36,305 nucleotides of DNA from Ardenticatenaceae bacterium (GTDB lineage Bacteria; Chloroflexota; Anaerolineae; Ardenticatenales; Ardenticatenaceae). Location: assembly GCA_015491235.1 (NCBI GenBank), contig WFWG01000274.1, positions 1 to 36,305 of the forward strand. Reading direction: 5' to 3'. Numbering within the stretch: position 1 is the stretch's first letter; each line of letters opens with the position of its first letter. The notes under the pieces were generated by a model. That model had not been told where the DNA came from and made no database searches. It saw nothing but the letters and a program-made list of their open reading frames with translations. Positions 4,533 to 22,189 of the stretch are shown piece by piece. The position numbers were made by a program, and so were the translations under genes.

Positions 4533-6434
4533 ATGAAACGCTTGTTTGTGCTTGTCGGCTTGTTAGCTCTGGCGCTGCTGCTGGTGGCCTGTCCTGGCCA
4601 GCAGGCAACGCCGCAGGTAACCAAGATCGTCGAGACGCAGGTGGTGGAGGTGACCCGCATTGTTGAGGGTACACCGGTCGTTGAGCAGATCATCGTGACG
4701 GCCACGCCCCCGCCAGCCGCACCTGAACCGGTGACACTCAACATCAACTGGGGCACTGAACCGCCCACGTTGGATCCGTCCCTGGCGACCGACACCACGT
4801 CCGTGGGATTGATTGAGGAAATGTTCCTCGGCCTGACCGACTTGGACGACGAGACGATGGAGCCCGTTCCCGAACTGGCCACTGAATGGTCGGCCAACGA
4901 GGACAACACCGTCTGGACGTTCAAGATGCGCGACGACGTGGTGTGGGTGAAATACAACCCCTCCACGGGCGAAGTGGAACAAGAGCTCGACGAGAACGGT
5001 AACCCGCGCATTGTCACGGCCAACGATGTGGTGTACGGTGTCAAGCGCACCTGTGATCCCACCACTGGCTCTGACTACGCTTACGTGCTCTACATCGTCA
5101 AAGGGTGCAAGGACTTGAACACTACTGAGGCTGACCCCGACAGCGACGAGTTCAAGGCCCTGTACGACGCTGTGGGTGTGCGCGCGGTGGACGATTTCAC
5201 CGTGGAGTTTACGCTGGAGTACGGTGCTGGCTTCTTCCCGCAGATTGCCAGCATGTGGATCGCTCGCCCGCAGCCCCGATGGATCATTGAGGAGAAGCAA
5301 GAGCGCTGGATCGAAGCTGGCTTCATTGTTACCAATGGTCCTTACACGCTCAGTGAGTGGGTCCACGGTGACTCGATCGTACTGGTCAAGAATCCCCACT
5401 GGTACGGCTGGAAGGAGTTTGCCGACGAGGCCGGTAACATCGAGCGCATCTTCGGCTTAATGATCGAGGAGGCTTCCACCGAGTTTGCCCTCTATGAAGC
5501 CAACGAGCTGGACACCGCTGGTGTGCCGCTCGAGCAGATGGAGCGGGTGAAGACCGATCCGGTCTTGAGCAAGGAGTACGTCAACCAGCCCATCAACTGC
5601 ACCTACTACTACGGTTTCATCACCAAGAAGCCACCCACGGATGACGTGCGCGTGCGCCGGGCCCTCTCCATGGCCATTGACCGCAAGACGCTGGTGGAAG
5701 AGGTGCTGAAGGGCGGCCAAATTCCGGCCAACACCTTCACCAACCCGCTCAACTTTGGCTCGCCAGCCGGTGACCCCGAAGTGGCCCCGTGGGCATTGCC
5801 CGAGGACATGGGCGGCTGGGGCTACGAGAAGGCCGTCGAAGAAGGTCGCAAGCTGCTCGAGGAGGCCGGTTACCCCGATGGCGCCGGGCTGGACATTCTG
5901 CTCATGCACAACGTGAGCGAGGCCCACGCCCGCATCGCTGAGGCCATTCAGGCCATGTGGAAGTCGGCCTACCCCGAGATGAACGTGACCATTGAAACCC
6001 AAGAGTGGCGCGTCTACCTCAAGACCATTGACATTGACAGCCCACTGGAGGACAAGCCCAACGTTTACCGCCTGGGTTGGTGCGCCGACTACCCGCACGC
6101 TAACAACTGGGTCCACGAGGTCTTCAACCCCACCGAAGGGGCCAACGAGCCCATGCTGACCACCGACGACCCGCAGGTGGGTGACTTGGTGGCCGAGTTC
6201 GACCAGACCACTAAGCAGGCGCAGACGGCCAGCCAGGAAGAGCAACTGGAGCTCTACAAGCGCGCCGAGCAACTCTTGGTGGACGAGATCGCCGCCATCG
6301 CACCGATTTATTACTACACCCGCAACGGCTTGGCCAAGCCGTGGCTGAAGCGCGTGTGGGGTGACCCGGGCCGACTCCACATCTGGAAGTGGTCCATTGA
6401 CGTGGAAGCTCGTAACGCAGCGATGGGCAAGTAA
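4533..6434 (+). CDS. Extracellular solute-binding lipoprotein, family 5 (OppA/DppA-like)
   Basis: This is the 633-residue substrate receptor for the adjacent OppBCDF importer. The signal peptide ends in lipobox LVAC with lipidated Cys20. A spacer rich in Val-Glu and Thr-Pro follows (KIVETQVVEVTRIVEG), common in Chloroflexota lipoproteins. The fold is in canonical order: an N-terminal lobe starting LNINWGTEPPTLDP; the GPYTLSEW and LVKNPHWYGW strands at about residues 270-290; then the second lobe with VRVRRALSMAIDRKTLVEEV at about 380-400. A strong AAGGAGGAGGAG ribosome site precedes ATG 4533. Substrate is not readable from sequence, but peptides are most likely. It is followed by a palindromic hairpin before oppB. 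Confidence 0.93.
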   Translation: MKRLFVLVGLLALALLLVACPGQQATPQVTKIVETQVVEVTRIVEGTPVVEQIIVTATPPPAAPEPVTLNINWGTEPPTLDPSLATDTTSVGLIEEMFLGLTDLDDETMEPVPELATEWSANEDNTVWTFKMRDDVVWVKYNPSTGEVEQELDENGNPRIVTANDVVYGVKRTCDPTTGSDYAYVLYIVKGCKDLNTTEADPDSDEFKALYDAVGVRAVDDFTVEFTLEYGAGFFPQIASMWIARPQPRWIIEEKQERWIEAGFIVTNGPYTLSEWVHGDSIVLVKNPHWYGWKEFADEAGNIERIFGLMIEEASTEFALYEANELDTAGVPLEQMERVKTDPVLSKEYVNQPINCTYYYGFITKKPPTDDVRVRRALSMAIDRKTLVEEVLKGGQIPANTFTNPLNFGSPAGDPEVAPWALPEDMGGWGYEKAVEEGRKLLEEAGYPDGAGLDILLMHNVSEAHARIAEAIQAMWKSAYPEMNVTIETQEWRVYLKTIDIDSPLEDKPNVYRLGWCADYPHANNWVHEVFNPTEGANEPMLTTDDPQVGDLVAEFDQTTKQAQTASQEEQLELYKRAEQLLVDEIAAIAPIYYYTRNGLAKPWLKRVWGDPGRLHIWKWSIDVEARNAAMGK

Positions 6435-7534: not shown

Positions 7535-8557
7535 ATGACTGTCCAGACGCGAACTGCTCGACTCCTGGAGGCTCAGCCAGAGCGGCGCGGACGAAGTCCG
7601 CTGGCTGATGCGTTTCGGCAACTGTTGAAGAACCGCCTTGCTGTGGTGAGTGGAATCTTTATCATTGTCCTTCTCCTCGTAGCGCTGTTCGCCGACACGG
7701 CTATTTTCACCCTCTTTACCGGCGGGGAAGCTCGCCAACTGTTGGCTCCCTATCCTTACGATGAAACGAACTTCAAGTACCATGACCTTGGCATTATGGA
7801 GCGAGCCGAGGACGGGCGCCTCTTCATCCTCGGCACCGATGCCCTGGGACGTGATCTGTTGAGCCGCACGCTCTACGGGGCGCGCGTTTCGCTTGCCGTG
7901 GCCATTGTGGCTTCCCTGGTAAGCCTGGTGGTAGGGCTCGCGTATGGCCTCATTTCGGGATATTCGAGCACTCGTGTTGACAACCTGATGATGCGCTTCG
8001 TCGACTTCTTGTACGGATTTCCTTTTATTATCTTTGTGATTCTTATGCAGGTTTACTTCAAAGCGCTCTCTCGGCGTGGTGGGGCTGGCTTTGCCCAGTT
8101 TCTGGTTGACTTGGACAAGTCTATGGGAGGCCTCCTCTTTATCTTTATCGCGATTGGGCTGATCAACTGGATTGGTATGGCCCGCATCGCCAGAGGACAG
8201 ACGCTCTCGGTGAAGGAAAAGGAGTTCATCGAGGCGGCGCGGGCCATTGGCGCCAGCAACCGCCGAATTATCTTTCGCCACGTGTTGCCTAATATTCTAG
8301 GCCCCTGTATCGTCGCTGAAACGTTGGCTATTCCGGGTTACATCTTCTTGGAGGCATTTCTGAGCTTTATTGGTCTTGGCGTCAACCCGCCAACCCCAAG
8401 CTGGGGCCTGATGATTTCCGACTCGTTTCGCGCGTTGACAGTGCGCCCTCACCAAGTCTTTGTGCCTTCCCTGGCACTCACGCTGACAACGTTGGCCTTC
8501 AACTTTCTCGGCGACGGACTAAGGGACGCCTTCGACCCACGCTTGCGAGGCGAATAA
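7535..8557 (+). CDS. oppC: Peptide-type ABC transporter permease (OppC/DppC)
   Basis: This 340-residue permease is the partner of the 6506 gene. The first helix is at about residues 40-58. The conserved segment LGTDALGRDLLSRTLYGARVSL follows at about 105-125. The EAA loop reads EAARAIGASNRRIIFRHVLP, and the end is FNFLGDGLRDAFDPRLRGE. A GGGAG ribosome site lies before ATG 7535. It completes a full five-gene importer in the order D-F-A-B-C. No obvious terminator follows before the next SBP leader. Confidence 0.94.
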   Translation: MTVQTRTARLLEAQPERRGRSPLADAFRQLLKNRLAVVSGIFIIVLLLVALFADTAIFTLFTGGEARQLLAPYPYDETNFKYHDLGIMERAEDGRLFILGTDALGRDLLSRTLYGARVSLAVAIVASLVSLVVGLAYGLISGYSSTRVDNLMMRFVDFLYGFPFIIFVILMQVYFKALSRRGGAGFAQFLVDLDKSMGGLLFIFIAIGLINWIGMARIARGQTLSVKEKEFIEAARAIGASNRRIIFRHVLPNILGPCIVAETLAIPGYIFLEAFLSFIGLGVNPPTPSWGLMISDSFRALTVRPHQVFVPSLALTLTTLAFNFLGDGLRDAFDPRLRGE

Positions 8558-8636
8558 CCCTGAAGTGCCTCGCGTTCGCTCGTTTTGTCGTGCGTGAAGC
8601 CTCGTAATCTGGTGTGAGAACACGTAAACCGACGAA

Positions 8637-8650
8637 GAAAGGAGGTGAGA
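8637..8650 (+). promoter_or_regulatory. Isolated strong Shine-Dalgarno (STAB-SD-like), second copy
   Basis: GAAAGGAGGTGAGA is identical over 14 nt to 4431-4444 and lies 80 nt before the SBP start at 8731. No gene starts behind it: the only overlapping GTG frame closes after 9 codons. Both leaders also carry an ATGTAA start-stop (4492-4497 and 8705-8710) between the element and the gene. Confidence 0.45.
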
Positions 8651-8730
8651 GCCGCAAACGATAAGCCGTGAACGGTTTTTGAGAAGCCGAATTGTATAAC
8701 TAGAATGTAAACAAGTAAGGAGGAGAACAG

Positions 8731-11337
8731 ATGCCTCGTAACCGGTTGTTTTGGAGTGTTATAGCCTTACTGCTGGTCGTGGCGCTGGTGACAACGGCGT
8801 GCCCACGGCAAACAACACCGACACCAGCACCTGAAGCAACGCAACCACCGGCGCCGACGCCAACAGAGGCAGCAGCCGTTCAGCCCACGAAACCGCCCGC
8901 GCCGACACCCACGGAGGCTCCGCCTGAGCCGACGGCGACGCCTACCGTTTCGCCTGAAGAGCGCACGGGCGCGTGGGTGGATCAGGTGGTCTTCTCGCAG
9001 TTGGAGTCGGGTGAGCAGGCCATCCCGCGCCTGGAAGCCGGTGACATTGACATCTACGGAAGTGGCCTGAGTGATCCTGAAGTGTTCGCCCAGGTCAAGG
9101 ACAATCCGGATCTTACTTACGTGGAGAGCTTCGGCATCTACACGGAGCTCACGTTCAACCCGGTCCTGAACTTCAACGATGGCCGCCTCAATCCCTTCGG
9201 CGATCCCCAGATCCGTGAGGCCATCAACTGGGCTGTGGACCGCGACTACATCGTCCAAGAAATCTACGGCGGTCTGGCCACGGCCAAGTACCTGCCCATT
9301 ACGTCGGCTTTCCCCGACTACGCCCGCTACGTGGACAAGGTGCGCGCTTTGGAAGCCAAGTACGCCTATGACCTGGAGAAGGCTCGCCAGGTCATCACCG
9401 AGCGCATGGAAGCGCTGGGCGCCGAGATGGTGGACGGCAAGTGGACCTACAACGGCGAGCCGATTACCATCATCTTCCTCATCCGCACGGAGGACGAGCG
9501 CACCCAGATCGGCGACTACGTGGCCAACCAGCTCGAGGAATTAGGCTTCACCGTGGATCGCCAGTACAAGAACCGCACAGAGGCCAGCCCCATCTGGTAC
9601 AGCTCCGAACCGGCTGAGGGTCAATGGCACGTGTACACGGGCGGCTGGATCACCACGGCAGTTGACCGTGACCAGGGCGGTAACTTCGCCTTTTTCTACA
9701 CCAACTTGGGCCTTCCTGGTCCACTTTGGCAGGCTTACGAGAACGTGCCCGAGTTCTACGACATCGCCAAGCGGCTGGCCAACAACGAGTTCACCTCAAT
9801 GGAGGAGCGTGACGAACTCTTCCGCCAGGCCATGGATTACGCCCTGCAAGACTCGGTGCGCGTCTGGCTGGCCGACACGGTCTCCTTTACGCCCTTCTCC
9901 GCCAAGCTGGAGGTGGCTTACGACTTGGCCGGCGGTGTGCAAGGCTCGGCCCTGTGGCCCTTCACGCTGCGCTGGAAGGACCAGGTGGGCGGCACGGTCC
10001 GCTGGGGGCAGCCTGGCGTGCTCATCGAGCCGTGGAACCCGCTGGGCGGCTCCAACTGGATCTACGACACCGACGTGCAGCGGGCCACGGGTGAGTTCGC
10101 CGTTGTGACCAACCCGTACACCGGTTTGGGCTTGCCCAACCGCGTCGAGCGGGCCGAAGTGGTGGCCGAGACTGGCCTGCCCATCCGCCGCACGCTCGAC
10201 TGGGTGACCCTGGAGTTCCAGGACGAGATCACCGTCCCCGAGGATGCGTGGGCCGACTGGGATGCGGCCGAGCAGCGTTTCATCACCGTGGGCGAGAAGT
10301 TCCCGGACGGCGCCACGGCCAAGGTCAAGACGGTGGTCTACTACGAGGAGGACATGTTCGACAAAGTCAAGTGGCATGACGGTAGCCCGCTCACCGTGGC
10401 CGACTTCGTCATGAACATGATCCTGACCTTCGACCGCGGCAAGGAAGAGAGCCAGATCTATGACGAAGCGGTCGTGCCCAGCCTGGAATCCTTCCTGAGC
10501 GTCTTCAAGGGCGTGCGCATCGTCTCCACGGACCCGCTGGTCATTGAAACCTACTCCGACAGCTACAGCCTGGACGCCGAGAACACGGTCTCCACCTGGT
10601 GGCCCTACTACGACTTCGGTCAATCGCCGTGGCATTCCCTTGCCGTGGGCTGGTTGGCCGAAACCAACGGCGAGTTGGCCTTTACTTCCGACAAGTCCGA
10701 GGCGGCCGGCGTGGAGTGGATGAACTTCATCTCCGGTCCCAGCCTGGAAATCCTCAAGAAGTACCTGGACCAGGCGGCCGAGGAAGGCTTCATCCCCTAC
10801 GAGCCCACGCTGGGCGAGTACGTCACGGCTGATGAGGCCAAGGCTCGCTACGAGAACCTGGCCAAGTGGTACGATGAAATGGGCCACTTCTGGGTCGGCA
10901 CGGGACCCTTCTACCTGAGCCGCGTGGACACCACGGCCCAAGTGGTGGTCATTGATCGAAACCCCGACTATCCCGACCCGGCCACCAAGTGGGCTGGCTT
11001 TGGCACACCCAAGATTGCTGATGTCGAGGTAGACGGTCCCGGCCAAGTGACTGCCGGCCAGGAGGCAACCTTTGACGTCTACGTGACATACCAGGATGAG
11101 CCGTATCCAGCCGACGACATTGAGGCTGTCAAGTACTTGGTCTTTGACGACGCTGGGAACTTGGTGACCAGCGGTGATGCTGAGTTGGTGGAGGATGGTA
11201 CGTATCAGGTCGTCCTCAGCGGCGACGTGACGCAGAACATCCCCGCCGGCCCGGCCAAGATCGAGGTTGCCGTGACTTCCAAGCTGGTCAGCATTCCCAG
11301 CTTTGGCAGCCTCGAGTTCGTCGCCGTTGCGCCGTAA
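8731..11337 (+). CDS. Family-5 solute-binding lipoprotein with apparently circularly permuted fold and C-terminal beta domain
   Basis: This is an 868-residue lipoprotein (lipobox VTTAC, Cys24) with a Pro/Thr-rich tether at about residues 25-75. Residues about 82-415 match the half that normally comes last in SBP family 5: RLEAGDIDIY, then PFGDPQIREAINWAVDRDYIV at about 155-175, then the C-terminal lobe. Residues about 420-765 match the half that normally comes first: GGTVRWGQPG, KWHDGSPLTVADFVMNM at 548-564, then GTGPFYLSRVD and IDRNPDYPDP at 723-750, which usually sit mid-protein. The join is therefore circularly permuted relative to the neighbour at 4533. Residues about 766-868 form an Ig-like beta domain (QVTAGQEATFDVYV...). 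The ribosome site is AAGGAGGAG. It is the receptor for the permeases that follow; substrate unknown. Confidence 0.9.
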   Translation: MPRNRLFWSVIALLLVVALVTTACPRQTTPTPAPEATQPPAPTPTEAAAVQPTKPPAPTPTEAPPEPTATPTVSPEERTGAWVDQVVFSQLESGEQAIPRLEAGDIDIYGSGLSDPEVFAQVKDNPDLTYVESFGIYTELTFNPVLNFNDGRLNPFGDPQIREAINWAVDRDYIVQEIYGGLATAKYLPITSAFPDYARYVDKVRALEAKYAYDLEKARQVITERMEALGAEMVDGKWTYNGEPITIIFLIRTEDERTQIGDYVANQLEELGFTVDRQYKNRTEASPIWYSSEPAEGQWHVYTGGWITTAVDRDQGGNFAFFYTNLGLPGPLWQAYENVPEFYDIAKRLANNEFTSMEERDELFRQAMDYALQDSVRVWLADTVSFTPFSAKLEVAYDLAGGVQGSALWPFTLRWKDQVGGTVRWGQPGVLIEPWNPLGGSNWIYDTDVQRATGEFAVVTNPYTGLGLPNRVERAEVVAETGLPIRRTLDWVTLEFQDEITVPEDAWADWDAAEQRFITVGEKFPDGATAKVKTVVYYEEDMFDKVKWHDGSPLTVADFVMNMILTFDRGKEESQIYDEAVVPSLESFLSVFKGVRIVSTDPLVIETYSDSYSLDAENTVSTWWPYYDFGQSPWHSLAVGWLAETNGELAFTSDKSEAAGVEWMNFISGPSLEILKKYLDQAAEEGFIPYEPTLGEYVTADEAKARYENLAKWYDEMGHFWVGTGPFYLSRVDTTAQVVVIDRNPDYPDPATKWAGFGTPKIADVEVDGPGQVTAGQEATFDVYVTYQDEPYPADDIEAVKYLVFDDAGNLVTSGDAELVEDGTYQVVLSGDVTQNIPAGPAKIEVAVTSKLVSIPSFGSLEFVAVAP

Positions 11338-11350
11338 GCTCGTTTCGAGT

Positions 11351-11377
11351 AGGGGGCGACCTCGGGAGTCGCCCCCT
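11351..11377 (+). terminator. Hairpin after the permuted SBP gene (terminator or attenuator)
   Basis: A perfect 10-bp stem (AGGGGGCGAC / GTCGCCCCCT) with a 7-nt loop starts 14 nt after the stop codon and is followed by TTCC. The T tract is short, so partial termination is likelier than complete. Confidence 0.65.
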
Positions 11378-11403
11378 TTCCGTCCGACTCGAGACCTGAA
11401 GCG

Positions 11404-11434
11404 GGTACGGCGGGCGCAACGTGCCCGCCGTACC
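11404..11434. repeat. REP-like palindrome in the SBP-permease gap
   Basis: A 12-bp perfect inverted repeat (GGTACGGCGGGC / GCCCGCCGTACC) has a 7-nt loop and no T tract. With the hairpin at 11351 it gives two stable structures between SBP and permease genes, like the single palindrome in the first transporter operon. Confidence 0.6.
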
Positions 11435-11515
11435 TGTTCCCAAGGCTTTCGTACAAATGGGAAAACCTCACCTGATCTCTGAGGCGGTTGGGCTGTTGGA
11501 AGGAGGTTTGTGAAC

Positions 11516-12643
11516 ATGGCCGAACAAGCTTTGCCTGTCGAGAAAGGGGTGACCGCACCGGCAGGTGAAAGCACCTTCATGCGCCTGGCCAAGTACACGC
11601 TTATGCGCACGGTGGTGCTCTTCTTCACCGTCGTTGCGGGCGTTTATGTGACCGTAATCATTGCCAACATGGGGGGATACGTGGACGAAATCCGCCGGGG
11701 TGAGATCCGGGAAAACATCTCCATAGCCGTTATGAACAACCCGGCTTACAAAAGCTACACCCTGGAACAGAAGCGAGAGCTCATCGAGGAACTCTCACGA
11801 CTGGAGGAAAAACGTTTGGGCCTTGACAAGCCCTTTTTGGTGCGCAGTTTCTTCTTCCTCCGCAACGCCCTCACCCTGCGCCTCGGGTTTGCTCAGCGCA
11901 TGGTGAGCGACGCCGGATCGCGCCAGGTGCGACTGATTATCTTGGAACGTTTGCCCACGACGCTGCTGCTTTTTGGAACAGCCGATTTGCTCCTCTTCTT
12001 TTCAAGTGTGTTTATTGCGCTCATCTTGTCCCGTCAGTATGGAAGCTTCTGGGACCGCGTCTTCGTGGCCCTTTCACCCACGTCAGCCGCGCCAGGTTGG
12101 TTCTACGGCATTTTCCTCATCCTCGTCTTCGCCTCCTGGTTGCGCATTCTCCCGTTCGGCGACTTGGTGGACGTGCCGCCGCCGGAGACGCCTGTCCTCT
12201 ACGCACTCAGCGTGCTCAAACACTTGATTTTGCCCACCATGGCTATAATTATTGGCGCCATCTTCGTCAGCGTCTACAGTTGGCGCACATTTTTCCTGAT
12301 TTACTCCAGTGAGGATTACGTGGAGCTGGCACGGGCAAAGGGCCTCTCCGACCGGACCATCGAGCGGCGTTACATCCTGCGCCCAACGTTGCCCACTATT
12401 ATCACGAACTTTGCCTTGCTGGTCATTAGCCTGTGGACCGGTGCCCCCATTTTGGAGACGGTCTTCAACTGGCCCGGACTGGGGCGCACCCTCTTCCAGG
12501 CCATTGGCCTCTTCGACGTGCCGGTGATCGTCGGCTCCACGGTCATTTTTGCCTATCTGCTGGCTATCACTGTCTTCCTGCTCGACATCTTGTACGCCAT
12601 CGTGGATCCGCGCGTGCGGATTGGCGGGGGCGGCGGAAGGTAA
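11516..12643 (+). CDS. ABC transporter permease, DppB-type with enlarged first loop
   Basis: This 375-residue permease belongs to the binding-protein-dependent family. Helix 1 (RTVVLFFTVVAGVYVTVIIA) is followed by an extracytoplasmic, charged, probably helical stretch of about 100 residues (LEQKRELIEELSRLEEKR) before helix 2. The EAA loop reads ELARAKGLSDRTIERRYILR, and the end is IVDPRVRIG. A frame-open GTG at 11510 sits only 3 nt after the AAGGAGG ribosome site, so ATG 11516 with a 9-nt gap is preferred. It works with the 12659 permease, the permuted SBP and the ATPases at 14027 and 15763. Confidence 0.9.
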   Translation: MAEQALPVEKGVTAPAGESTFMRLAKYTLMRTVVLFFTVVAGVYVTVIIANMGGYVDEIRRGEIRENISIAVMNNPAYKSYTLEQKRELIEELSRLEEKRLGLDKPFLVRSFFFLRNALTLRLGFAQRMVSDAGSRQVRLIILERLPTTLLLFGTADLLLFFSSVFIALILSRQYGSFWDRVFVALSPTSAAPGWFYGIFLILVFASWLRILPFGDLVDVPPPETPVLYALSVLKHLILPTMAIIIGAIFVSVYSWRTFFLIYSSEDYVELARAKGLSDRTIERRYILRPTLPTIITNFALLVISLWTGAPILETVFNWPGLGRTLFQAIGLFDVPVIVGSTVIFAYLLAITVFLLDILYAIVDPRVRIGGGGGR

Positions 12644-12658
12644 AGGAGTAGGGTGAAA

Positions 12659-14023
12659 ATGGGATTGCTGCGGGACACACTGCGTGAACTGCGTTACTAT
12701 CCGTCTGCTATCGTTGGGCTGGTGATTATCTCGTTGCTGGTTCTCTTTTCCATTTACACGGTAATTGCCATCCCGTATGAGGAGGCCATTACCCTCTGGC
12801 GGGGCGGCGAAACCGTCTGGTATCGTTTGCCGCGCACCGTTCCGCCAGCCTGGACGAACCTGTTTCGCTCCAAGAAGCTGCCGGAGAGCCTCATCCTGGA
12901 CTCGCGGGAGGGAGCGGCCGAGCGCACGGAAGAGTCGCTTTCCAAAGGTGAAGGGAAGCAGATTCGACTGGTCTACACCTTCAACTTCTCCTACGACGAG
13001 TTTCCTGAAGATCTGTCGCTCTACTTTTATCCAACCTACACGGAAAAGCCGCCTTTCGTCTCGGTCCTGTGGGTGACGCCAGATGGTCGCGAAATCCGAA
13101 TTACGGATCAGGCTGTAAAACGCGGGGCCTTCCGCTTCATTCAGGACAAGAAACTTCAGCGACGCCTGCGGCGCAAAGTGGGTGATTTCCCCGCCAACGT
13201 GGCCCTTTTTGCTGATCCAGCCTCCACAGAGGCCGACGAGCCGGTGCCGTTGAAAGGAACCTACCGGCTGGAAGTGCTGGCCACCACGTTCGACCAGGAG
13301 TCGAACCTGGAGGCCGAACTGATCGTGTACGGCAAAGTGTACGGCATTGCCGGAACGGATCACCTGCGACGTGACCTGAAAGTTGCCCTCATGTGGGGAG
13401 CGCCCGTGGCACTGGCTTTCGGATTGCTGGCGGCTGTGGGTACCACGGTAACGACCATGATCATTGCGGCCATTGGCGTTTGGTTCAGTGGCATTGTGGA
13501 CGGCATCATCCAGCGCATCACTGAGGTCAACTTGATGTTGCCCCTCTTGCCCATTCTCATCATGATTGGCACCTTCTACTCGCGGAGCATCTGGGTTATT
13601 CTCGGAGCCACAATCCTGTTTAGCATTTTTGGCGCGAGCATCAAGACGTACCGGGCTATCTTCCTGCAAATCCGCGAGTCTCCCTACATTGAGGCCGCGC
13701 GGGCCTACGGAGCCAGTGACTTTCGCATCATTTTCCGATACCTCATTCCGCGCATTCTGCCGATTCTGATTCCGAACCTGGTCACCCTGATTCCCTCTTT
13801 CGTGTTTCTGGAGGCCTCGCTGGCTGTCCTGGGATTGGGCGATCCTATTCTGCCGACCTGGGGCAAGTTGATTCAGGACTCCCTGTCCAACGGGGCGCTC
13901 TACAAAGGGCTTTACTACTGGGTGTTGGAACCGTCGGCTTTGCTGATGATCACTGGTCTGGGGTTTGCCATGCTGGGCTTCACGCTAGACCGAGTCTTCA
14001 ATCCACGCTTGCGAGAGATATAG
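12659..14023 (+). CDS. ABC transporter permease, DppC-type with about 200-residue extracytoplasmic insert
   Basis: This 454-residue protein is about 150 longer than ordinary DppC proteins. Helix 1 (SAIVGLVIISLLVLFSIYTV) is followed by about 200 soluble residues rich in beta-forming segments (RLVYTFNFSYDEFPEDLSLYFY, SVLWVTPDGREIRI, TYRLEVLATTF) that should lie outside the membrane. The canonical DppC core then begins at GTDHLRRDLKVALMWG. The EAA loop is EAARAYGASDFRIIFRYLIP and the end is FTLDRVFNPRLREI. A GTG at 12653 is too near the AAAGGAG ribosome site, so ATG 12659 is chosen. The insert may contact the SBP's extra domain; that is inference. Confidence 0.9.
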   Translation: MGLLRDTLRELRYYPSAIVGLVIISLLVLFSIYTVIAIPYEEAITLWRGGETVWYRLPRTVPPAWTNLFRSKKLPESLILDSREGAAERTEESLSKGEGKQIRLVYTFNFSYDEFPEDLSLYFYPTYTEKPPFVSVLWVTPDGREIRITDQAVKRGAFRFIQDKKLQRRLRRKVGDFPANVALFADPASTEADEPVPLKGTYRLEVLATTFDQESNLEAELIVYGKVYGIAGTDHLRRDLKVALMWGAPVALAFGLLAAVGTTVTTMIIAAIGVWFSGIVDGIIQRITEVNLMLPLLPILIMIGTFYSRSIWVILGATILFSIFGASIKTYRAIFLQIRESPYIEAARAYGASDFRIIFRYLIPRILPILIPNLVTLIPSFVFLEASLAVLGLGDPILPTWGKLIQDSLSNGALYKGLYYWVLEPSALLMITGLGFAMLGFTLDRVFNPRLREI

Positions 14024-14026
14024 ACC

Positions 14027-15043
14027 ATGAAGAACGGCAACGTATTGCAAGTCGAAGACCTCTATCTGTACTTCGCTACGAAGAGGGGTGTCGTACAGGC
14101 CGTTGACGGGGTGAACCTAGCCCTGCCACGCAGTTCGGCCATGGTCATTCTGGGCGAGTCGGGGTGTGGCAAGAGTTCACTGGCTCGCGCCATTTTGCGC
14201 CTTCTTCCCCGCAATGTTCACACCTACGCTGGTCGCATCTTGCTGGACGGGCAGGATGTCATGGCCCTTGACGAGGATTCCTTCCGAGAAAATGTGCGCT
14301 GGGTGCGCGTCTCCATGGTTCCTCAAGCGGCCATGAACGCGCTGAACCCTGTCATCCGTGTGGGCGACCAAGTAGCTGAGCCAGCTATCGTGCACTTGGG
14401 CGTAACGAAGGAGGAGGCGTGGGAGATGGCCCGGCGCATGTTCCGGTACGTGGGCGTGCCGGAGGGATTTCTCAACCGGTACCCCTTCGAGTTGAGCGGC
14501 GGCATGCGCCAACGTGTGGCCATCGCTATGGCTTTGGTCACTTCGCCAAGCTTGATCATTCTAGACGAGCCCACATCCGCGCTTGACGTGCTCACACAGG
14601 CCAACATCATGAATACCCTTAAGCGCATCAAACAGGAGACGGGTACCAGTTACATTCTCATCACTCACGATATCGCGACCTCGAGCGATCTGGCTGAACA
14701 CGTGGCCGTCATGTACGCCGGCCAGATCGTGGAAGTGAGCAACGCAGCCGCCTTCTTCTCGGAACCGCTCCACCCCTACTCTCAGAAATTGATGGCTTCG
14801 GTGCCCCGCTTGCACGGCGATAAGGAGTTGGAATTCATTCCTGGCCGGCCTCCCAGCCTGCTCAACCCGCCCACCGGTTGTCGGTTTGCCTCGCGGTGCC
14901 CCCTGCGTTTCGGGAAGTGCGACCAGGATCCACCTACCTTCCGGTTGGGAGAGCGCCTTGTCAAATGCTGGCTGTTTGAAGCAGACGCTGAACTGGCGTA
15001 TCCCGACACGACGAGTGCTCATCCGTCGGAGCAAAGGCGATGA
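14027..15043 (+). CDS. Peptide/oligosaccharide-type ABC transporter ATP-binding protein (DppD-like)
   Basis: This is a 338-residue cytoplasmic ATPase. It shows Walker [10 protein letters not shown], a Q-loop in MVPQAAMNALNP (Q preceded by P rather than F), signature LSGGMRQR, Walker B LIILDEPTSALD and H-loop LITHD. The C-terminal oligopeptide-transporter extension has GCRFASRCP, a third Cys in FGKCDQDPP and a fourth in VKCW, a possible [4Fe-4S] set. It starts 4 nt after the permease stop, without a strong ribosome site, so translation is probably coupled. It overlaps the coiled-coil gene by ATGA. Confidence 0.93.
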   Translation: MKNGNVLQVEDLYLYFATKRGVVQAVDGVNLALPRSSAMVILGESGCGKSSLARAILRLLPRNVHTYAGRILLDGQDVMALDEDSFRENVRWVRVSMVPQAAMNALNPVIRVGDQVAEPAIVHLGVTKEEAWEMARRMFRYVGVPEGFLNRYPFELSGGMRQRVAIAMALVTSPSLIILDEPTSALDVLTQANIMNTLKRIKQETGTSYILITHDIATSSDLAEHVAVMYAGQIVEVSNAAAFFSEPLHPYSQKLMASVPRLHGDKELEFIPGRPPSLLNPPTGCRFASRCPLRFGKCDQDPPTFRLGERLVKCWLFEADAELAYPDTTSAHPSEQRR

Positions 15044-15732
15044 CCGAACAAGCGTTCAAAATGCCTCCAAACCTGGAAGAACGTATACGAGCCATTGTAG
15101 ACGAAAAGTTGACGGAATTTGCCCGTAAGTACGAAGAACAGGCTCACCACATGGTGCTGGTGGACCGCCTGTTACGCGTCGAAGAGGAGCTCAAGGCCTC
15201 GCGAGAAGACTTGGTCCGCCTGCTGGAGCATTACGACCAGCGGGCTCAAGAGCGTTTCGAGATCGTCGAACAGCGCTTTGAAGTCGTCGAACGGCGCTTC
15301 GAGGTCTTGGTGCAGGAGATGAACACGCGCTTTGAGGCGATGGACAAACGCTTCGAGGCGCTGATGCGGGAGATGGACAAGCGCTTCGGAGCCGTGGACA
15401 AACGCTTTGAAGCGTTGGTACGAGAGATGAACACGCGCTTCGAGGCGGTGGATCAACGCTTCGAGGCGATGGACAAGCGTTTCGAGACATTGGTACGGGA
15501 GATGAACGCGCGCTTTGAAGCGGTAGATCAACGCTTCGAGATGCTCATCCGGCAGATGGACAAACGCTTTGAGGCTGTAGACCAGCGCTTCGAGGCGCTG
15601 ATGCGGGAGATGGACAAGCGCTTCGAGGCCGTGGACCGGCGCATGACCGTGCTGTTTCGCTTGATGGGCTTGGGATTTACGGTGCTCGCCTTGCTGATTG
15701 CTTGGCTGGGATATTTGGCGCAGACGCCGTGA
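15040..15732 (+). CDS. Tail-anchored coiled-coil protein with alternating 7/11-residue repeats
   Basis: This 230-residue protein of unknown function overlaps the preceding ATPase gene by 4 nt and is followed by the second ATPase gene, so it belongs to the transporter operon. Residues 1-71 are helical and charged. Residues 72-200 carry 15 RF(E/G)-type units spaced 7 or 11 residues apart in near-regular alternation (18 residues per two units), a mixed heptad/hendecad coiled coil. Residues about 207-226 form one membrane helix (GLGFTVLALLIAWLGYLA), placing the coil in the cytoplasm if tail-anchored. Similar MDKRFEAVDKRF proteins occur in many bacteria without known function. Here it might hold the ATPases or permeases in oligomers; this is inference. 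Confidence 0.85.
   Translation: MTEQAFKMPPNLEERIRAIVDEKLTEFARKYEEQAHHMVLVDRLLRVEEELKASREDLVRLLEHYDQRAQERFEIVEQRFEVVERRFEVLVQEMNTRFEAMDKRFEALMREMDKRFGAVDKRFEALVREMNTRFEAVDQRFEAMDKRFETLVREMNARFEAVDQRFEMLIRQMDKRFEAVDQRFEALMREMDKRFEAVDRRMTVLFRLMGLGFTVLALLIAWLGYLAQTP
15253..15639 (+). repeat. In-frame tandem repeat encoding the coiled coil
   Basis: The unit of about 54 nt (18 codons, 7+11) is imperfectly repeated about six times, with extra 21-nt heptad insertions near 15253 and 15460. Near-identical pieces such as CGCTTCGAGGCG recur, so slippage or unequal recombination could change repeat number between strains. Confidence 0.8.
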
Positions 15733-15762: not shown

Positions 15763-16779
15763 GTGACATTGACGGCACCTGTTGACACCAAAGCGACCTC
15801 AACCACAGTCCTGTTGTCGGTGCGCAACTTGCGCGTCTGGTTCGAGTTGCGCAAATTCGGCTTGGGCGTGGCCGGATACGTGCGTGCCGTAGACGGCGTA
15901 AGCTTCGATCTCTATGAGGGCGAGGCTATCGCCGTGGTGGGGGAGAGTGGGTGTGGCAAGTCCAGCTTGATGCGCACCATTTTGGGGTTGCACCGTCCCC
16001 GCGAGGGCCAGATTATCTTTGATGGCCGCGACATTTCCCGCTTCACCCGCGACGAGTTGCGCTGGTATCGCACACGAGTGGGGTACGTGCAACAAGACCC
16101 CTACGGCGCCCTGCCGCCTTTCATGACGGTGCGTGGCATCCTGGAGGAGCCACTGGTCGTGGCGGGCGTCAAGGACAAGCAGGAACGACTGGAGCGTATT
16201 CGTCAGGTGATGCGCGAAGTGAAGATGACACCGGTAGACGATTTTCTGAGCAAGTTTCCCCACCAGTTGAGCGGAGGACAGCAGCAGCGCATCGTCATTG
16301 CCCGGGCCATTCTCCTCGAGCCGCGCCTGCTGGTGGCCGACGAACCGGTCTCCATGTTGGACGCCTCGGTGCGTGTGGAGATTCTGACGCTGCTCCGCCA
16401 GTTGCAGGAGCAGCACAACCTCTCGGTGATTTACATCACCCATGATCTCTCCACCGTGCGCTACTTCTCGGAGCGCATCTTTGTAATGTACGCTGGCCAG
16501 ATTATCGAAAAGGGGCCAGTAAACGAAATTCTGGAGAACCCCAAACACCCGTATACCTGGGCGTTGCTGGCGGCCACGCCGGAGCCGGACCCTCAGAACG
16601 TCCACAAATTCCGAGAAGTGCCACCGGGAGAGCCACCTAGCTTGATTACGCCGCCGTCAGGTTGTCGTTTCCATCCCCGGTGTGCTAAGATTATTCACGG
16701 CACATGTGAGCGTCAGGTGCCACCAGGGTTTGAGGTGTCCCCTGAGCACATCGTCCAATGCTGGCTATACGAGGAGTGA
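15763..16779 (+). CDS. Peptide/oligosaccharide-type ABC transporter ATP-binding protein (DppF-like)
   Basis: This is a 338-residue second ATPase of the unusual transporter. The start is GTG 15763 behind AGGAGGAG; the nearby ATG 15732 is out of frame. Motifs are Walker [11 protein letters not shown]-loop VQQDPYGALPPFM, signature LSGGQQQR, Walker B LLVADEPVSMLDAS (Met where Ala is common) and H-loop ITHDL. The C-terminal Cys-containing extension is GCRFHPRCAKIIHGTC...VQCW. It should form a heterodimer with the 14027 ATPase. Confidence 0.93.
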   Translation: MTLTAPVDTKATSTTVLLSVRNLRVWFELRKFGLGVAGYVRAVDGVSFDLYEGEAIAVVGESGCGKSSLMRTILGLHRPREGQIIFDGRDISRFTRDELRWYRTRVGYVQQDPYGALPPFMTVRGILEEPLVVAGVKDKQERLERIRQVMREVKMTPVDDFLSKFPHQLSGGQQQRIVIARAILLEPRLLVADEPVSMLDASVRVEILTLLRQLQEQHNLSVIYITHDLSTVRYFSERIFVMYAGQIIEKGPVNEILENPKHPYTWALLAATPEPDPQNVHKFREVPPGEPPSLITPPSGCRFHPRCAKIIHGTCERQVPPGFEVSPEHIVQCWLYEE

Positions 16780-20518: not shown

Positions 20519-22189
20519 ATGAACTACGCCTTTCTCATTGACCAGCGGAAGTGTATCGGCTGTCATGCGTGTAGCACGGCCTGCAAGTCCGAGAACCAGG
20601 TTCCCCTCGGTGTCTACCGCACATGGGTGAAGTATGTCGAAAAAGGCACTTTCCCCAACGTGCGCCGCTTCTTCCAAGTGACCCGCTGTAACCACTGCGC
20701 CAACCCACCCTGTGTGCGCATTTGCCCCGTCGAAGCCATGTACCAGCGGGACGATGGCATTGTGGAGTTCGACCCTCGCGTGTGCATCGGCTGCAAGGCC
20801 TGCCTGCAAGCTTGCCCCTACGACGCCATTTACATTGACCCCGACACCGGCACGGCGGCCAAGTGTCACTTCTGCGCCCACCGCATCGAGGTGGGCCTGG
20901 AGCCGGCCTGTGTCATCGTCTGTCCTGAACGAGCAATCATCGCCGGTGACCTGGACGACCCCGAGAGCGAAATCAGCCGCCTTATCGAGCGCTATCCCGT
21001 CAGCGTGCGCAAGCCCGAACAGGGCACGGCCCCGAAGCTCTTCTACATTGACGCCGACGAAGTGACGCTGACCCCCACGGCCTCCCACATCCCGGGCAGC
21101 TTCATGTGGGCTGAGGTGGCCAGCGACCAGGCGCGCGCCATTGACGCGACCGACGACCCCCACCCCACTGAGTCGCCCGTTCACACCCACACGCCCAGCG
21201 GTTTTACCGTGCGCGAAGCCAGCGAGCAGGGTGTGGGAACCTGGAGTGGTCCCATCGTCGTGGGCGGGCGCCAGGCCGAGCACATGGTGCAGACTGCCTA
21301 TAACGCCCAGCACAAAGTGCCGTGGCACTGGCAGGTGCCCGCTTACCTGGTCACCAAGGGCATCGGCAGCGGTACCTTCATGCTGCTGGCGCTCCTCTTC
21401 GGCCTGGGGGCGGTGGAGTTCAGTCGGCCAGTCGCGTTGGCCGGCACGCTGGTCTCGCTCCTCTTCATTGGCCTGACGACTTTGCTTCTCATCTGGGACT
21501 TGGAGCGGCCGGAACGCTTCTACACCATTTTGACCCGACCGCAGTGGAAGTCGTGGCTGACGCGAGGTGCCTTCATCCTGGTGGGCTTCTCGCTGGTGGC
21601 CGGCCTCTGGTTCTTGCTGGAAGGCGGCGCGGCAGTCGGCATTTTGCCCGATGGCCTGGCATCTGGCACGCGCCCCCTCTTTGTCTGGGGAGGCTTCTTG
21701 CTGGCCGTGCTGAGCGCTGTCTACACCGCCTTCCTGTTCGGTCAGGCCGAAGGGCGTGATTTGTGGCAAAGCTCCCTCCTGCCCGTTCACCTGGTGGTGC
21801 AGGCCCTGATGGTGGGCGCAGGAGCGTTGCTGGTGTTGGGGATAGTCGTTCCGCTGCCCGCGGCCATGCAAACGGCGCTGGCGTGGACTTTCGTGCTCTC
21901 CCTGGTGGCAGACCTCTTCGTGACGCTCTTCGGCGAGTTCGGAATGCCCCACGCTTCAGAGGTGGCGGCCCGCGCTGCGCACCAAATTCGCGCTGGCAAG
22001 TACAGTCGCCACTTCTGGTGGGGGAGCATCGGGTTGGGGCACGGCGTGGCCCTGGTGCTGGCGGTGCTGGCCGTGCAGGCGGGCCTCTCGCTGCCCCTGA
22101 TGGCCTTGGCGGCGCTGGCGGCCATCGCTGGCCTCTACCTGTTTGAACACGCTTTTGTCATGGCGCCGCAGGAGATTCCGAACTCATGA
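20519..22189 (+). CDS. Fused FeS electron-transfer and NrfD-type membrane subunit (SoeB-SoeC-like)
   Basis: This 556-residue protein merges two subunits usually encoded separately. Residues 1-180 hold four [4Fe-4S] motifs of the DmsB/PsrB type: CIGCHACSTACK, CNHCANPPCVRICP, CIGCKACLQACP, and CHFC...CVIVCP. A linker runs from about 180 to 270. Residues about 275-556 form the NrfD/PsrC quinone-reactive membrane domain with about eight helices, beginning WHWQVPAYLVTKGIGSGTFM. No signal peptide precedes the FeS part, so it should lie in the cytoplasm. ATG 20519 follows AAGGAG. It would pass electrons between the molybdenum subunit and quinone. Confidence 0.9.
   Translation: MNYAFLIDQRKCIGCHACSTACKSENQVPLGVYRTWVKYVEKGTFPNVRRFFQVTRCNHCANPPCVRICPVEAMYQRDDGIVEFDPRVCIGCKACLQACPYDAIYIDPDTGTAAKCHFCAHRIEVGLEPACVIVCPERAIIAGDLDDPESEISRLIERYPVSVRKPEQGTAPKLFYIDADEVTLTPTASHIPGSFMWAEVASDQARAIDATDDPHPTESPVHTHTPSGFTVREASEQGVGTWSGPIVVGGRQAEHMVQTAYNAQHKVPWHWQVPAYLVTKGIGSGTFMLLALLFGLGAVEFSRPVALAGTLVSLLFIGLTTLLLIWDLERPERFYTILTRPQWKSWLTRGAFILVGFSLVAGLWFLLEGGAAVGILPDGLASGTRPLFVWGGFLLAVLSAVYTAFLFGQAEGRDLWQSSLLPVHLVVQALMVGAGALLVLGIVVPLPAAMQTALAWTFVLSLVADLFVTLFGEFGMPHASEVAARAAHQIRAGKYSRHFWWGSIGLGHGVALVLAVLAVQAGLSLPLMALAALAAIAGLYLFEHAFVMAPQEIPNS

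Follow-up and report, generated by a model that had tools for sequence, protein, structure and literature searches.

The gene at positions 8731–11337 of the forward strand, in the 36,305-nucleotide stretch of DNA analysed here (the window), encodes a protein that we regard, with a probability of about 0.9, as a genuine, naturally occurring circular permutant of a family-5 (cluster C, OppA-type) solute-binding protein (SBP), which carries an N-terminal lipid anchor and serves its own OppB-C-D-F importer. The two parts of its fold stand in swapped order and cover the canonical fold completely and without redundancy, the arrangement is conserved across phyla, and the gene belongs to a dedicated importer cassette. 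The topology of SBPs is usually taken to be fixed, and so is the position of their tether with respect to the transporter. In the 8731 protein, the termini of a large receptor with two lobes appear to have been relocated in nature; the receptor has stayed with its own importer and has spread through a lineage.

Segment order and predicted fold of the 8731 protein

The open reading frame encodes 868 amino acids, and SBP_bac_5 (PF00496) is the only Pfam family found in it (116.6 bits against a cut-off of 32.4, E=1.9e-33). Instead of one continuous match in canonical order, the six-frame Pfam scan of the whole genome returned two stretches in swapped order. Profile positions 146–358 match at nucleotides 8971–9684, and positions 25–153 match downstream of them, at 10360–11031; the two stretches of the 368-position profile are complementary, essentially without overlap. 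The neighbouring family-5 SBP gene at 4533–6434 (forward strand), whose normal order had been proposed as an internal control, bears this out with a single match in the same scan, which covers profile positions 1–366 at residues 110–536.

The features of the 8731 gene described below are all on the forward strand. The protein begins as a bacterial lipoprotein, with the signal peptide MPRNRLFWSVIALLLVVALVTTAC (8731–8802) containing a lipobox with Cys24. The signal peptide is followed by a Pro/Thr-rich tether linker (residues 25–77, 8803–8961), the length and letters of which are poorly conserved among the relatives. Segment A (residues 78–415, 8962–9975) corresponds to the canonical second part of the SBP fold, namely lobe II and the return to lobe I, and matches positions 266–548 of a 567-position HMM of canonical SBPs. 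Segment B (residues 416–756, 9976–10998) corresponds to the canonical first part, with the GTGPF and NPDY motifs at its end. An Ig-like beta-sandwich domain (residues 757–868, 10999–11334) is added at the new C-terminus, as the original prediction had claimed; it was recognized by a FlgD_ig match (E=5e-4, below the Pfam cut-off), by confidently modelled strands and by Foldseek matches to CARDB, macroglobulin and filamin domains. On the reverse strand, a 610-aa open frame (9796–11628) runs antisense to the gene and was attributed to the high GC content of the coding sequence.

All motifs named in the original prediction are located in this frame: RLEAGDIDIY at residues 100–109, QIREAINWAVDRDYIV at 160–175, KWHDGSPLTVADFV at 547–560 (10369–10410), GTGPFYLS at 723–730 and DRNPDYPD at 742–749. 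The motif KWHDGSPLTVADFV normally lies near the N-terminus, and the last two (10897–10977) directly precede the new cut. The motifs said to have moved to the front lie where they were placed, but QIREAINWAVDRDYIV belongs to the middle of canonical SBPs and not to their end. The front-shifted segment comprises everything after NPxY, about 340 residues.

The swapped order is also evident from the comparison with PDB entry 7fi3, an archaeal oligopeptide permease A (Thermococcus kodakaraensis OppA) solved with an endogenous pentapeptide, which is the best PDB match of each half both by sequence and by structure. A profile of 11 relatives aligned with it in two reversed blocks, profile positions 16–254 matching chain residues 327–586 and positions 422–678 matching residues 63–309 (63–310 for segment B). 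Together with the reversed Pfam stretches, this places the swapped order of the landmarks far beyond chance. For segment B with the Ig-like domain, 7fi3 was the sole significant sequence match among solved structures. The cut maps to 7fi3 residues ~310–326, ahead of the 'DQVVF' strand, in agreement with the predicted break after NPxY, and this break relocates the lipid anchor, so that the tether attaches at a new place as had been anticipated. Between the old termini there is a nearly direct join of about 5 residues (ALWPFTLRW-KDQVG-GTVRWGQ, 9958–9996), and this junction is conserved in the main clade. Restoring the canonical order of the segments merged the two separate phmmer stretches into a single one, in which query residues 76–587 match 7fi3 residues 62–585 and the alignment crosses the junction without a break beyond a few residues. 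The alignments of both blocks and the continuous match of the reordered protein thus indicate that segments A and B cover the canonical fold once, with nothing duplicated or missing; the profile coverage and the clean junction are those of a complete SBP with new termini. In line with this, the HMM of canonical SBPs matches permuted family members with its positions ~260–550 at their N-terminal side; in a minority of members the divergent other part is detectable as well, as a match of positions 139–268 further towards the C-terminus.

An AlphaFold2 model of residues 73–868, built from an 11-sequence alignment, reached a pLDDT of 78.9 and a pTM of 0.72. Foldseek, which aligns sequentially, matched this model to 7fi3 over 401 columns and to other cluster-C SBPs over ~315–350 of ~500 residues. 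Such partial coverage is the expected pattern if one segment at a time is aligned, as in a permutant. The separate model of residues 416–868 matched 7fi3 over 348 columns (E=3.0e-14), ahead of the Ig-like folds. The pTM of 0.72 and the separate Foldseek matches of each half to family-5 structures are compatible with a bilobed cluster-C fold, in which the packing of A against B was deduced from the pTM and the B-half model. In the latter the first 33 residues are disordered (pLDDT 34 and 31 in the first blocks); in the whole-chain model, the strand 422–427 is ordered (82 and 74). This first strand of segment B appears to need segment A, and since it orders only with segment A present, the models argue for one joint fold.

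The importer cassette and the relatives

The permuted SBP gene heads a cassette with the order SBP-OppB-OppC-OppD-OppF, and nearly all of its relatives do likewise. It is followed by the gene of an OppB-type permease (11510–12643; Pfam BPD_transp_1), which succeeds the permuted SBP in the relatives as well, and by the genes of an OppC-type permease (12653–14023) and of the OppD-type and OppF-type ATPases (14027–15043 and 15763–16779; both ABC_tran and oligo_HPY), all on the forward strand. The OppC-type permease of 456 aa matches OppC_N at residues 5–42 and BPD_transp_1 at 270–454, and contains an extra segment of ~150 aa between TM1 and the permease core; the ordinary OppC1 has 340 aa. The extra segment looks beta-rich by eye and has no Pfam match, and similarly long OppC frames stand beside permuted SBPs elsewhere. 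As a guess, the Ig-like domain of the SBP might dock on it. Between the OppD and OppF genes (15040–15732) lies a gene for a repetitive coiled-coil protein with MDKRFEAVDQRFEALMREM repeats and a C-terminal hydrophobic segment; among the loci checked, this insert occurs otherwise only in the near relative L011.

The same linkage to permeases and ATPases is conserved in the relatives. All four importer partners are encoded downstream in each of the nine GTDB loci among L002–L012 with enough flank (L002–L005, L008, L009 and L010–L012). The cassette of the Acetothermia locus L009 has an extra OppB copy, with consecutive OppB-like frames at 8426–9587 and 9978–11112 of that locus. In a deep clade, the cassette follows the SBP in L094 and L101 and is more spread out in L095 and L096. 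That the permutant works as an SBP is indicated chiefly by this dedicated partnership.

A survey of homologues, proposed earlier as a check, found the same permuted order in 30 or more relatives from Chloroflexota and some Acetothermia. Collinearity with the query was seen in eleven GTDB loci from Chloroflexota and two Acetothermia, with a frameshift in L012. Whole-genome searches of samples that overlap in part found collinear full-length relatives in 13 of 60 genomes of the class, in 9 of 81 of the phylum and, with a permuted relative as the query, in 6 of 60 from a second class. A search of Chloroflexota with the reordered query, aimed at a close relative in canonical order, returned the permutants and otherwise no more than weak generic matches (E 1e-12 to 1e-18). 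Plasmid records gave partial weak matches only. Among the matches listed in a survey of SBP_bac_5 order, most are canonical and several start at profile positions 54–64. One normal-order family-5 SBP (L063, on contig C93 of G000) is split over two frames by a frameshift or as a pseudogene.

In the tree, the 33 members included fall into two groups, both with full support. The N-terminal lipobox is present in 24 of the 33 relatives scanned. Six of the eight members of the deep clade (L025, L036, L051, L052, L053 and L055) have none and instead carry a putative transmembrane helix at the C-terminus; in the remaining scanned relatives neither lipobox nor C-terminal helix is clear. Judging from these sequences, the anchor has switched ends in the deep clade through the putative C-terminal helix. 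Because both termini of the permuted core exit from the same loop, an anchor on either end could tether the protein at an unchanged position.

Three other explanations were weighed against the permutant. The swapped order could result from a fusion of two partial SBPs of different origins, each non-functional or with a new function. The halves do appear as separate Pfam matches, but they are complementary parts of one profile, share 7fi3 as their best solved relative and align continuously through the junction once reordered, and the conservation and dedicated cassette point to a working SBP. With nothing duplicated or missing and both halves from one subfamily, this alternative, which the original prediction had raised, is refuted in our judgement and retains very little probability. 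An error of assembly or gene calling is less probable still, and we regard an assembly artefact as excluded. The source is a fragmented draft genome of 414 contigs, yet the order recurs in dozens of independent genomes, including the single-contig genomes G033 and G101.

The domain-swapped oligomer, the second alternative raised at the outset, is improbable, although it keeps somewhat more weight than the other two. In that case, canonical clamps would arise in a dimer or larger assembly, in which each segment B is completed by segment A from a different chain. Completion within and between chains looks alike in sequence order and in a monomer prediction, and to that extent the alternative is compatible with the model. 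However, the join of ~5 residues is that expected for a direct link of the old termini within one chain, the model of the monomer is confident overall (pTM 0.72), and the B strand orders only with A in the same chain.

For a circular permutant, the chain would be expected to form the usual clamp of two lobes, since the old termini lie close together in lobe I and allow a direct join. The folded clamp would bind an oligopeptide-like ligand between its lobes, as T. kodakaraensis OppA does, and the bound ligand would be handed to OppB/OppC. With the termini relocated to the post-NPxY loop, the tether and the Ig-like domain would leave the protein from that loop. The 8731 protein is most likely the receptor of an oligopeptide-type ABC importer. 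The 'W-x-A-D' aspartate of the 4533 protein is not conserved in it and is absent at the aligned place in 7fi3 too; since both lack it, the mode of ligand recognition is probably that of the T. kodakaraensis type, not the E. coli one. The simplest origin would be a tandem duplication of an OppA-like gene with subsequent loss of the outer parts. Among the relatives no duplication intermediate (B-A-B or A-B-A) was found, the longer frames being upstream extensions or, in the family of the second permutant described below, fusions with SBP_bac_3 or LIV-type domains; the long matches of L005 and L006 represent an adjacent canonical SBP gene.

Another permuted family-5 SBP of this genome

A second SBP_bac_5 lipoprotein (L066, L097) is encoded outside the window, at 20993–22720 of contig C283, with profile positions 61–365 first and 1–57 second. 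Like the 8731 protein, it is a circular permutant and a lipoprotein with its own permeases and ATPases; its gene heads an operon with OppB, OppC and two ATPase genes alongside. In contrast to the 8731 protein, it is cut at Pfam positions 57/61, after the HDG helix region, and is closer to ordinary family-5 members. As the cut position and the subfamily differ between the two proteins, at least two permutation events in the family-5 fold are implied by these sequences.

Relatives of L066 are present in 28 of the 60 class genomes. The HMM of canonical SBPs found the swapped order in 27 of these 28 relatives; the remaining one (L081) is located at the end of a contig. Unlike the family of the 8731 protein, they are often fused to other SBP classes, and at least 11 of the 28 have a SBP_bac_3 or Peripla_BP_6 domain in front, one of them both. 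The chimeric proteins with a SBP_bac_3 (amino-acid-type) and/or Peripla_BP_6 (LIV-type) domain are L067, L068, L069, L073, L079, L085, L088–L091 and L093; L089 has three SBP domains in one frame, and L073 also contains a CxxCH cytochrome-like stretch.

The second permutant lends further weight to the main finding and may be even more striking than it. It is likely that two or more permutations have arisen among the family-5 SBPs of Chloroflexota, at two different breakpoints that both lie within the first part of the fold, and that both forms were fixed as working, widespread importer components. The freed termini would have allowed interchangeable anchoring (by an N-terminal lipid or a C-terminal transmembrane helix) and the Ig-like domain in one line, and, in the other, head-to-tail fusion of different SBP classes within a single chain.

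Comparison with known systems

The permutants make the mutual constraint of terminus position, tether attachment and SBP-transporter docking directly testable, and biosensor design could draw on the natural breakpoints in the family-5 fold. The number of permuted SBPs is probably underestimated, because collinear domain searches split or miss such proteins. The original prediction that no SBP of this kind had been described proved too strong, as the open-access literature searched yielded one natural SBP permutation, TpMglB-2 (Tp0684) of Treponema pallidum, a circular permutant of a lipid-anchored cluster B SBP of an ABC importer (PMC4990184). Nothing relevant on permutation in family 5, SBP_bac_5 or oligopeptide-binding proteins was found in that literature.

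TpMglB-2 and the 8731 protein are both natural permutants with a lipid anchor, a cut in lobe I and clade-wide conservation. TpMglB-2 is classed as 'Type Ic / Cluster Bc'; the authors of the study proposed a 'Cluster Bc' and suggested tethering as a rationale (PMC4990184). TpMglB-2 is, however, a sugar SBP of an unrelated subfamily with no Ig-like domain reported, and ~100 residues have been moved to its end (PMC4990184), whereas in the 8731 protein a segment of ~340 residues of another fold class has been shifted. The Pfam and PDB matches of the 8731 protein belong to family 5 / cluster C and not to the sugar-binding fold of cluster B. T. kodakaraensis OppA is the best solved relative of both halves of the 8731 protein by sequence and fold and has an enlarged N-terminal part in common with it, but shows the canonical order, no aligned Ig-like domain and an identity of ~20%. 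With the canonical family-5 / cluster C proteins OppA, DppA, NikA and AppA, the 8731 protein has the Pfam domain, the signature motifs and the OppBCDF-type partners in common; it differs from them in the order of its segments, the position of the tether and the Ig-like domain.
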